Source: Primulina eburnea
Lineage: Eukaryota > Streptophyta > Magnoliopsida > Lamiales > Gesneriaceae
Direction of reading: 5' to 3'
Length of the DNA: 64,000 bases
NCBI RefSeq assembly: GCF_022965805.1
Contig: NC_133110.1
Coordinates: forward strand, 30,438,668-30,502,667
Under the pieces are notes generated by a model. That model saw only the letters and a program-made list of their open reading frames with translations, was not told the DNA's origin and ran no database searches. The translations under genes were made by a program, and so were the position numbers. The number at the start of each line of letters is the position of its first letter. The first letter of the stretch is position 1. Below are positions 1 to 61,445 of the stretch, piece by piece.

Positions 1-2316
1 CTCATAAAACCAATGATGCTTCAAACATTGCGGATTTGTTCTTTAGAGAAGTCGTTAGGTTGCATGGCATGCCTAGGACTATTGTTTCGGGTCGCGGTGT
101 TAAATTTTTGAGTTACTTTTCGATGACATTATGGGCAAAACTTGGCACAAAAGTGTTGTTTTCTACTACTTTTCATCCTCAAACGGATGGACAAACTTAA
201 GTTTTCAATAGAACTTTGGGAACATATTTGCATGCTATTTTTAAAAAGAACTTGGATTGACATTTCTAGGGACTTTATTTTGGGGTTGCCTAGGACTAAG
301 AAGGGGAGGGATTCTATTTTTGTTGTTGTGGATAGATTCTCTAAGAAGGCACATTTTATAGCTTGTCATAAAACCTATGATGCTTCAAACATTGCGGATT
401 TGTTCTTTAGAGAAGTCGTTAGGTTGCATGGCATGCCTAGGACTATTGTTTCTGGTCGCGATGTTAAATTCTTGAGTTACTTTTGGAAGACTTTATGGGC
501 TAAACTTGGCACAAAATTGTTGTTTTCTACTTCTTGTCATCCTCAAACGGATCGACAAACTGAAGTTGTCAATAGAACTTTGGGAATACTTTTGCGTGTT
601 ATTCTTAAAAAGAACTTGGATTGACATTTCTATGGACTTTATTTTGGGGTTGCCTAGGACTAAGAAGGGGAGAAATTTTATTTTTTTTGTTGTGGATAGA
701 TTCTCTAAGATGACACATTTTATAGCTTGTTATAAAACCGATGATGCTTCAAACATTGCGGATTTGTTCTTTAGAGAAGTCGTTAGGTTGCATGGCATGC
801 CTAGGACTATTGATTCTGGTCGCGATGTTAAATTCTTGAGTTACTTTTGGAATACTTTATGGGCTAAACTTGGCACAAAATTGTTGTTTCTACTACTTGT
901 CATCCTCAAACTGGTGGACAAACTGAAGTTGTCAATAGAACTTTGGGAACACTTTTGCGTGCGATTCTTAAAAAGAACTTGGATTGACATTTCTAGGGAC
1001 TTTATTTTGGGGTTGCCTAGGACTAAAAAGTGGAGGGATTCTATTTTTGTTGTTGTGGATAGATTCTCTAAGATGGCACATTTTATAGCTTGTCATAAAA
1101 TCCGATGATACTTCAAATATTGCGGATTTGTTCTTCAGAGAAATCGCTAGGTTGTATGGCATGCCTAGGACTATTGTTTCTAATCGCGATGTTAAATTCT
1201 TGAGTTACTTTTGGAATACTTTATGTGCTAAACTTGGCACAAAATTGTTGTTTTCTACTACTTGTCATCCTCAAACGGATGGACAAACCGAAGTTGTCAA
1301 TAGAACTTTGGGAACACTTTTGCGTGATATTCTTAAAAAGAACTTGGATTGACATTTCTATGGACTTTATTTTGGGGTTGCCTAGGACTAAGAAGAGGAG
1401 GGATTCTAATTTTTTTGTTGTGGATAGATTCTCTATGATGTCACATTTTATAGCTTGTCATAAAATCGATGATGCTTCAAACATTGCGGATTTGTTCTTT
1501 AGAGAAGTCGTTAGGTTGCATGGGATGCCTAGGACTATTGTTTCTGGTCGCGATGTTAAATTCTTGAGTTACTTTTGGAGGACTTTATGGGCTAAACTTG
1601 GCACAAAATTGTTCTTTTCTACTACTTGTCATACTTAAACGGATGGACAAACTAAAGTTATCAATAGAACTTTGGGAACACTTTTGCGTGCTATTCTTAA
1701 AAAGAACTTGGATTGACATTTCTATGGACTTTATTTTGGGGTTGCCTAGGACTAAGAAGGGGAGGCATTCTATTTTTGTTGTTGTGGATAGATTCTCTAA
1801 GAGGGCACATTTTATAGATTGTCATAAAACCGATGATGCTTCAAACATGTTGGATTTTTTCTTTAGAGAAGTCGCTAGGTTGCATGGCACGCCTAGGACT
1901 ATTGTTTCTGGTCGCGATGTTAAATTCTTAAGTTACTTTTGGAATACTTTATGGGCTAAACTTGGCACAAAATTGTTGTTTTCTACTACTTGTCATCCTT
2001 AAACGGATGGACAAACTAAAGTTGTCAATAGAACTTTGGGAACACCTTTGCGTGCTATTCTTAAAAAGAACATGGATTGACATTTCTATGGACTTTATTT
2101 TGGGGTTGCCTAGGACTAAGAAGGGGAGGGATTCTATTTTTGTTGTTGTGGATAGATTCTCTAAGATGGCACATTTTATAGATTGTCATAAAACCGATGA
2201 TGCTTCAAACATGTTGGATTTGTTCTTTAGAGAAGTCGCTAGGTTGCATGGCACGCCTAGGACTATTGTTTCTGGTCGCGATGTTAAATTCTTGAGTTAC
2301 TTTTGGAATACTTTAT
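1..2316 (+). repeat. Integrase-core satellite array, segment 1 (364-bp monomers)
   Basis: Head-to-tail tandem repeat. The junction word CTTGGATTGACATTTC (or its CATGG variant) recurs at 251, 615, 978, 1343, 1707 and 2071, a spacing of 363-365 bp. Each monomer encodes about 121 residues of a Ty3/Gypsy integrase core, from the first catalytic Asp (motif ISMDFILGLPRTKK) through the catalytic Glu (HPQTDGQTEVVNRTL) to LLRAILKKNL. Because 364 is 3x121+1, each junction shifts the frame: the integrase frame ends at TGA right at the junction, while another frame crosses into the next monomer. Reading frames of about 135-200 codons result, with a nonsense leader and an integrase body; I do not regard them as genes. 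Every monomer has SGRD, SNRD or SGRG where the catalytic SDRD is expected. The segment is cut at 2316 by element A and starts beyond the window. Confidence 0.95.
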
Positions 2317-2539
2317 TGTAATGCCCAGAGCAATGATTGACATGTACGAATTCATAGATATGTTGTGAAGATTGTACATAACCATAAGAAATAAGAAATG
2401 ATATCATATATGATTTTCAGTATGATTATGACTTGTTAGGACAGAAGTACTGTATTGGATTATGATTGAGAATATGATAGTGTTGATATCTATTGAGAAT
2501 TAGATTGACCGGCATCGAGAATATTGGAGTATTTATATT

Positions 2540-58728: not shown

Positions 58729-61445
58729 GGGATTCTATTTTTGTTGTTGTGGATAGATTCTCTAAGATGGCACATTTTATATCTTGTCATAAAACCGATG
58801 ATGCTTCAAACATTGCGGATTTGTTCTTTAGAGAAGTCGCTAGGTTGCATGGCATGCCTAGGACTATTGTTTCTGGTCGCGATGTTAAATTCTTGAGTTA
58901 CTTTTGGAATACTTTATGGGCTAAACTTGGCACAAAATTGTTGTTTTCTACTACTTGTCATCCTCAAACGGATGGACAAACTGAAGTTGTCAATAGAACT
59001 TTGGGAACACTTTTGCGTGCTATTCTTAAAAATAACTTGGATTGAAATTTTTATGGACTTTATTTTAGGGTTGCCTAGGACTAAGAAGGGGAGGGATTCT
59101 ATTTTTGTTGTTGTGGATAGATTCTCTGAGATGGCACATTTTATAGTTTGTCATAAAACGATGATTCTTTAAACATGGCGGATTTGTTCTTTAGAGAAGT
59201 CGGTAGGTTGCATGGCATGCCTAGGACTATTGTTTCTGGTCGCGATGTTAAATTCTTGAGTTACTTTTGGAATACTTTATGGGCTAAACTTGGCCCAAAA
59301 TTGTTGTTTTCTACTACTTGTCATCCTCAAACGGATGGACAAACTGAAGTTGTCAATAGAATTTCGGGAACATTTTGCGTGCTATTCTTAAAAAGAACTT
59401 GGATTGACATTTCTATGGACTTTATTTTGGGGTTGCCGAGGACTAAGAAGGGGAGGGATTGTATTTTTATTGTTGTGGATAGATTCTCTAAGATGGCACA
59501 TTTTATAGCTTGTCATAAAATCGATGATGCTTCAAACATTGCGGATTTGTTCTTTAGAGAAGTCGTTAGGTTTCATGGCATGCCTAGGACTATTGTTTCT
59601 AGTCGCAATGTTAAATTCTTGAGTTACTTTTGGAAGACTTTATGGGCTAAACTTTGCACAAAATTGTTGTTTTCTACTACTTGTCATCCTCAAACGGATG
59701 GACAAACTGAAGTTGTCAATAGAACTTTGGGAACACTTTTGCGTGCTATTCTTAAAAAGAACATGGATTGACATTTCTATGGACTTTATTTTGGGGTTGC
59801 CTAGGACTAAGAAGGGGAGGGATTCTATTTTTGTTGTTGTGGATAGATTCTCTAAGATGGCACATTTTATAGCTTGTCATAAAACCGATGATTCTTCAAA
59901 CATGGCGGATTTGTTCTTTAGAGAAGTCGTTAGGTTGCATGGCATGCCTAGGACTATTGTTTCTGGTCGCGATGTTAAATTCTTGAGTTACTTTTGGAAA
60001 ACTTTATGGGCTAAACTTGGCACAAAATTTTTGTTTTCTACTACTTGTCATCCTCAAACGGATAGACAAACTGAAGTTGTCAATAGAACTTTGGGAACAC
60101 TTTTGCGGGCTATTCTTAAAAATAACTTGGATTGAAATTTTTATGGACTTTATTTTAGGGTTGCCTAGGACTAAGAAGGGGAGGGATTCTATTTTTGTTG
60201 TTGTGGATAGATTCTCTGAGATGGCACATTTTATAGTTTGTCATAAAACGATGATTCTTTAAACATGGCGGATTTGTTCTTTAGAGAAGTCGGTAGGTTG
60301 CATGGCATGCCTAGGACTATTGTTTCTGGTCGCGATGTTAAATTCTTGAGTTACTTTTGGAATACTTTATGGGCTAAACTTGGCCCAAAATTGTTGTTTT
60401 CTACTACTTGTCATCCTCAAACGGATGGACAAACTGAAGTTGTCAATAGAATTTCGGGAACATTTTGCGTGCTATTCTTAAAAAGAACTTGGATTGACAT
60501 TTCTATGGACTTTATTTTGGGGTTGCCGAGGACTAAGAAGGGGAGGGATTGTATTTTTATTGTTGTGGATAGATTCTCTAAGATGGCACATTTTATAGCT
60601 TGTCATAAAATCGATGATGCTTCAAACATTGCGGATTTGTTCTTTAGAGAAGTCGTTAGGTTTCATGGCATGCCTAGGACTATTGTTTCTAGTCGCAATG
60701 TTAAATTCTTGAGTTACTTTTGGAAGACTTTATGGGCTAAACTTTGCACAAAATTGTTGTTTTCTACTACTTGTCATCCTCAAACGGATGGACAAACTGA
60801 AGTTGTCAATAGAACTTTGGGAACACTTTTGCGTGCTATTCTTAAAAAGAACATGGATTGACATTTCTATGGACTTTATTTTGGGGTTGCCTAGGACTAA
60901 GAAGGGGAGGGATTCTATTTTTGTTGTTGTGGATAGATTCTCTAAGATGGCACATTTTATAGCTTGTCATAAAACCGATGATTCTTCAAACATAGCGGAT
61001 TTGTTCTTTAGAGAAGTCGTTAGGTTGCATGGCATGCCTAGGACTATTGTTTCTGGTCGCGATGTTAAATTCTTGAGTTACTTTTGGAAAACTTTATGGG
61101 CTAAACTTGGCACAAAATTTTTGTTTTCTACTACTTGTCATCCTCAAACGGATAGACAAACTGAAGTTGTCAATAGAACTTTGGGAACACTTTTGCGGGC
61201 TATTCTTAAAAAGAACTTAGATTGACATTTCTATGCACTTTTATTTTGGGGTTGCCTAGGACTAAGAAGGGGAGGGATTCTATTTTTGATGTTGTGGATA
61301 GATTCTCTAAGATGGCACATTTTATAGCTTGTCATAAAACGATGATGCTTCAAACATGGCGGATTTGTTCTTTAGAGAAGTCGCTAGGTTGCATGGCATG
61401 CCTAGGACTATTGTTTCTGGTCGCGATGTTAAATTATTGAGTTAC
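58729..61445 (+). repeat. Integrase-core satellite array, segment 3
   Basis: Junction words at 59036, 59398, 59762, 60126, 60488, 60852 and 61216. The block 59036-60125 is nearly identical to 60126-61215 (shift 1090 bp = three monomers minus two single-base deletions, AAAACGATG and ACATTTTGCG, both shared by the copies). Two 198-codon frames (59175-59771 and 60265-60861) are identical in translation. Every monomer again lacks the second catalytic Asp (SGRD, SSRN). The segment starts with the D1 duplication GGGAT and ends at GAGTTAC where D2 begins. Confidence 0.95.

Follow-up and report, generated by a model that had tools for sequence, protein, structure and literature searches.

Tandem repeats derived from retrotransposons of the CRM clade have been described before. 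Among the closest known systems are the maize repeats CRM1TR and CRM4TR, which come from long terminal repeat (LTR) and untranslated region (UTR) sequence and for which illegitimate recombination at short repeats was proposed as the start; CRM1TR monomers are ~700-820 bp long and occupy two loci on chromosome 9, and interruptions by heterologous retrotransposons were used for dating, with little movement between loci (PMC3648361). Here we describe a satellite of Primulina eburnea found in a 64,000-nucleotide stretch, hereafter the window, of C10 (NC_133110.1, positions 30,438,668 to 30,502,667), one of 18 chromosome-sized contigs. Like the maize repeats, it is a CRM-derived tandem repeat, but its source is the catalytic core of the integrase, its unit is 364 bp, and it is present in tens of thousands of copies genome-wide. 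Very probably, a 364-bp piece of a CRM integrase core became a genome-wide satellite, likely through one duplication, and was then amplified, with a putative centromeric or pericentromeric role.

Other plants offer partial parallels. The Ogre-derived satellites of Lathyrus sativus were likewise born from LTR retrotransposons and many lie at primary constrictions, but their source is short tandem repeats that Tat/Ogre elements already had in their 3' UTR, neither coding nor CRM (PMC7004042). Potato centromeres carry LTR-element-like tandem repeats, some with a gag remnant, whose units are a truncated internal region flanked by two LTRs and not an integrase-core monomer (PMC12596083). The retrotransposon-derived satellites in the sources consulted trace to LTRs, UTRs or stretches that contain gag (PMC3648361, PMC7004042, PMC12596083); the present one stands apart by its origin in the integrase core, its clean break points and its abundance. 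A preliminary description of the window had placed the origin of all CRM-derived repeats that it knew of in LTR or untranslated regions. This is too narrow if one counts a 250-bp centromeric repeat of wheat and rye, reportedly traced by Cheng and Murata in 2003 to a cereba-like Ty3/gypsy element; it, too, is said to be related to a coding part of a centromeric retrotransposon, albeit gag rather than integrase. An integrase source was not met elsewhere: a literature search for integrase-derived centromeric satellites, which also took in cassava centromeres, recognised no such case within a coverage that excludes most subscription papers, and of the papers listed for 364/365-bp plant satellites, those on Crepis and Populus give 364 bp as merely the upper end of a length range.

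The monomer and its donor family

Tandem Repeats Finder (TRF) reports three 364-bp arrays in the window, at 2-2316 (6.4 copies), 10314-12318 (5.5) and 58728-61446 (7.5), with 92-95% matches and scores of 3448-4939; together with self-comparison it gives ~19 head-to-tail monomers. Reading of the junctions sets the ends at 2316, 10314-12317 and 58729-61445, in agreement with the preliminary description on both ends and copy number. The monomer frame opens shortly ahead of the first catalytic Asp (DISMDF) and ends 18 residues beyond the Glu (QTEVVNRTL...KKNL) of a Ty3/gypsy integrase, both being catalytic residues in that family. The Pfam rve model weakly matches three array pieces (E 3.2e-7 to 6e-4, each under the curated cut-off), and some monomers contain stops or frame shifts.

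By tblastn, five integrase cores lie in elements inserted in the window; at just 45-50% identity to the monomer protein, they are rejected as its donor. Two elements that flank the array, D and D' (Table 1), are members of the donor family. D has no integrase core detectable by tblastn at 1e-5, and D' retains 48 bp of it (62838-62885, minus strand). The part of D' downstream of this remnant was used as the query for a genome search, from which 40 of 2082 first-look candidate places were listed. Eight loci were returned with their flanks, six with the core and two (L029 and L030) without, and 31 of the 32 other places were fetched (C6:13.67 Mb was left out). All 37 of these fetched loci contain the integrase region, uninterrupted and single-copy across both break points in 33 and partial in four; genome-wide, the uninterrupted donor junction has 563 matches (281 + 282; control 0 + 0).

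When 48 monomers sampled from 311 were compared with the 33 donor cores, mean identity was 90.0% (range 82.6-94.2), with the best single donor averaging 92.5%. In a tree, all of these sampled monomers group together as a single clade (support 100/100, bootstrap not fully settled) that is set off by 11 diagnostic sites, which points to a single origin of the satellite as far as it was sampled. The donor cores resemble the monomer far more than the window's other integrases do. CRM elements have LTR ends TGATG/CATCA, 5-bp target duplications and a tRNA-Met primer site, and in CRM group A the coding frame continues into the 3' LTR (PMC3059260). Group A elements also lack a type II chromodomain, contain a CR motif and concentrate in centromeres. 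The donor family has TGATG...CATCA ends, and 5-bp target duplications were read for D (with one mismatch) and D' only; the reading frame passes the LTR start in L032, L033, L034 and L036, a polypurine run precedes the LTR, and the Pfam Chromo model has no match at E<=1 in three of three donor integrase C-terminal pieces, of which one stretch may resemble the CR motif. The same chromodomain model matches two pieces of other window elements at ~7e-5, just under its cut-off. After the LTR end of D' (L012) stands the sequence TGGTATCAGAGC, a candidate primer site presumably of Met type. By its LTR ends, target duplications, frame into the 3' LTR and want of a Pfam chromodomain, the donor can be assigned to a CRM-clade family of the same genome, which supports the source first proposed for the satellite.

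Comparison of donor and satellite locates the event. The donor break points, GAACCTTGG (5') and GAACTTAAA (3'), are joined as GAACTTGG in the satellite; in wider context, the 5' break falls within GAACCTTGGGTTGAT and the 3' break within AAAAAGAACTTAAAGAATTGG, and the satellite reads AAAAAGAACTTGGATTGAC. Of five donors measured, four have 364 bp between the two sites and one has 363 bp (L033 lacks the 5' site); the trinucleotide CTT is present at both in four of five, the first site of L032 being CCT. We posit that a single exchange at these two short stretches of likeness, separated by 364 bp, would have produced the first tandem pair and that the satellite was thus likely born by one small microhomology-mediated tandem duplication. 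The origins of satellites are usually erased; since donor family, break points and unit length agree here, the start of a satellite now spread across the genome can be interpreted as a single event.

Abundance, homogeneity and the centromere

The satellite is not confined to this locus, a possibility that the preliminary description had raised against itself. Searched with up to 3 mismatches, the monomer junction has 83,354 matches genome-wide (39,509 + 43,845; reversed control 0 + 0), and an internal monomer word has 62,783 (28,757 + 34,026; control 0 + 0). At 364 bp per match the satellite would total 23-30 Mb, or 2.8-3.7% of the 812-Mb assembly, a figure that alternate haplotypes may inflate. 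Long head-to-tail arrays accompany this high copy number, and four 10-kb stretches of the unplaced contig C715 are almost wholly satellite. At least 11 of the 18 chromosomes (C1, C2, C3, C5, C6, C7, C8, C10, C14, C15 and C16) carry arrays, as do many unplaced contigs; this map is drawn from the matches listed, so that an unlisted chromosome says nothing of absence.

From 17 fetched loci and the window, 311 near-complete monomers were extracted. Neighbours are 93.5-99.9% identical: 99.6, 99.6, 99.3 and 98.2% in the four C715 stretches, 99.8% in C492, 99.9% in C295, and 98.2-98.3% in C756, C1194 and C499. The lower values come from C3 (two stretches, 95.4 and 97.6%), C15 (94.8%) and C10 (93.5-93.9%). 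Some arrays have higher-order repeats, of three monomers in piece 3 of the window (98.4% at a 1090-bp offset) and of seven in L015, a C10 locus (96.6% at lag 7 vs 92.1-93.8% at other lags); at C1:35.0 Mb, exact junctions are spaced mostly 1050 and 1415 bp apart in alternation, and lag analysis found no higher-order pattern in the C715 arrays. The neighbour identity and the 3- and 7-monomer repeats suggest that the satellite was amplified and homogenised by unequal exchange or gene conversion. Truncated monomers also recur at similar spacings (114+147 and 142+72) in L025 on C499 and in L017-L019 on C715, which indicates repeat units of greater complexity.

The satellite may serve as non-coding centromeric or pericentromeric DNA, in which case its youngest arrays would carry CENH3 or heterochromatic nucleosomes, and a centromere function, already suggested in the preliminary description, is plausible. 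We consider it possible, though short of probable, that the main CENH3 satellite of this genome is the fossil core of a centromere-targeting integrase, its putatively two-nucleosome 364-bp unit (2x182 bp) having replaced the prior repeat on most chromosomes while the CRM family still inserts there. It is likewise quite conceivable, without being the expected outcome, that this is a true satellite of CRM origin which belongs to pericentromeric, interstitial or knob-type heterochromatin, with CENH3 on another sequence. The degenerate, insertion-filled array in the window fits such heterochromatin, as do the number and position of the arrays described below; set against it are the estimated share of the assembly, the placement of the most homogeneous arrays on unplaced contigs, as expected for centromere cores, and the CRM-type LTR ends that adjoin satellite at four sites: D, D' (of which L030 is a duplicate), C14 (L034) and C787 (L005).

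Several observations weigh against a centromeric satellite drawn from the donors sampled. C1, C3, C5 and C10 each have arrays in two or more places, an untidy picture either for a repeat confined to centromeres or for the assembly, and satellite monomers at C5:41645563-41646283 stand 0.17 Mb short of that contig's end, where they may represent a near-telomeric array or a scaffold that ends in an unassembled centromere. Satellite adjoins three of the 28 readable CRM 3' LTR ends among the 40 places (L029, L030 and L034), of which L029 and L030 are duplicates of one site, and none was found in the 32 flanks fetched for the remaining CRM places; this weakens the argument that CRM marks the centromere. 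The donor family is also present on all 18 chromosomes (listed donor junctions on 17, with C12 added by the D'-based search). Finally, donors were picked by their likeness to D', and a closer donor subfamily may exist.

Exact CRM copies lie a mean of 6.8 Mb from known arrays vs 11.0 Mb for uniform random positions (0.2% of 5000 draws), a weak signal on an incomplete map; without in-array copies the distances are 7.9 vs 11.1 Mb (2.2%), again weak and dependent on a crude random model. This test used 29 of 45 exact copies; of those dropped, 10 are on chromosomes where no array is known and six on unplaced contigs. If the youngest arrays carry CENH3, the satellite would be a clear case of the enzyme gene of a centromere-targeting retrotransposon made into centromere DNA and, if true, would suggest that a coding past is irrelevant to the role of a sequence at the centromere.

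Two further features of the CRM flanks were seen. L090 and L094 (C6:7.94 and 5.67 Mb) have a flank common to two CRM-family copies, another duplicated stretch. In L091 (C14:13.68 Mb) a primer-site-like stretch, TAGTATCAGAGC, follows the LTR end, which could place this copy within a tandem LTR-internal-LTR arrangement rather than at a true 3' end.

Route of spread and coding status

Arrays on many chromosomes and contigs need some means of spread, and this would be supplied if the tandem unit had arisen within a mobile CRM copy, as a tandem integrase duplication, been carried about by transposition and then expanded locally. We regard this route as unlikely: the integrase is single-copy in every one of the 33 loci that span both breaks, with four more partial, and in L032-L036 the frames continue from the core beyond the junction site. 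The survey covered 37 loci out of 563 or more donor places, which leaves room for a tandem-bearing copy.

The repeat is non-coding and was likely amplified as such. Monomers are mostly spaced 364-365 bp apart, and because 364 (3x121+1) is not a multiple of three, the frame shifts at each junction and none runs through the array. The position of the second catalytic Asp is Gly in 267 of the 311 monomers, Ser in 22, Arg in 12, Asp in 3, Val in 3, Asn in 2, Cys in 1 and a gap in 1. The claim that each monomer encodes the integrase core from the first Asp to past the Glu thus holds for the span of the frame and fails for the second Asp and for any array-long frame. Nucleotide diversity at codon positions 1/2/3 is 0.029/0.027/0.026 over all monomers, 0.007/0.012/0.006 in C715, 0.070/0.064/0.052 in C10 and 0.056/0.047/0.044 in C15; C3 (0.035/0.032/0.039) is the sole subset of four with any third-position excess, and a slight one. 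That the satellite is maintained as coding sequence, as a domesticated or decoy integrase fragment, is rejected as extremely improbable on its broken frames, lost Asp and absence of an overall third-position excess, even though 100 of the 311 monomers have at least 110 open codons from the start and 301 keep the Glu codon, a retention that reads as youth rather than selection.

The interrupted array and its second copy

The three array pieces in the window (Table 1) are a single array split by insertions of LTR retrotransposons, as follows from pieces in register and target-site duplications flanking the inserts. Element A separates piece 1, which breaks off at monomer position 225, from piece 2, which opens at 221; D separates the end of piece 2, at position 41, from the start of piece 3, at 35. 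Three separate arrays were considered and rejected by flanking sequence and by comparison with L015. The array continues to the right of D' from ~76989 (window coordinates), and left of the window it is divided by another element with LTRs 99.1% identical and ACTTT on both sides. It is an old, retrotransposon-riddled relic of the satellite family.

Table 1. Satellite pieces and inserted elements, in window coordinates
Feature	Coordinates	Strand	Evidence and remarks
Satellite array piece 1, 6.4 monomers, integrase-core derived	1..2316	+	TRF, BLAST register; extends left of window to -505
LTR retrotransposon A in array	2317..10313	+	LTRs 2317-3872 and 8758-10313 (99.87%); target duplication TTTAT both sides
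Satellite array piece 2, 5.5 monomers, register shared with piece 1	10314..12317	+	TRF, BLAST register, junction reading
CRM-type element D	12318..58728	-	LTR ends TGATG...CATCA; target duplication CGGAT/GGGAT, one mismatch
Nested LTR-element block within one LTR of D	12505..40531		Target duplication ATAAC/ACAAC, one mismatch
Nested LTR-element block in D, ending within D's other LTR	43828..58047 (left boundary approximate)		BLAST register, junction reading
Satellite array piece 3, 7.5 monomers, 3-monomer higher-order repeat	58729..61445	+	TRF, BLAST register, junction reading
CRM-type element D', start only in window	61446..64000 (end ~76988, outside window)	-	Target duplication GTTAC both sides; LTRs 96.4%

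Element A matches the Pfam models for gag, reverse transcriptase, RNase H and integrase, with a chromodomain just below the curated cut-off; its near-identical LTRs and an uninterrupted 1517-codon reading frame (4106-8659) mark it as a recent insertion. D has an internal deletion, retains gag (42776-43834, minus strand) and is enlarged by nested insertions; LTR match and register argue that both of its ends belong to one element. The ages of the insertions into the C10 array are expressed as raw LTR differences, with no rate applied: 2/1556 for A, 25/2780 for the left-hand element, 24/687 for D' and 35/680 for D.

A second copy of the locus, 97.8-98.5% identical and ~152-154 kb distant, was found in L015 (C10:30588000-30597999) and may be either a segmental duplication or the other haplotype, set in tandem when the genome was assembled. 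Its array is unbroken at the sites of element A, the youngest insertion in the window, and of the left-hand element, which are either later insertions or differences between the copies. L030 (C10:30.652 Mb) is the counterpart of the window's flank in this second copy.

Three LTR-element blocks share an ATAAC-like end point, at 12500-12510 and 58043-58050 in the two LTRs of D and at 76300-76310 in D' (L013), which suggests a repeated insertion site in CRM LTRs or a shared history.

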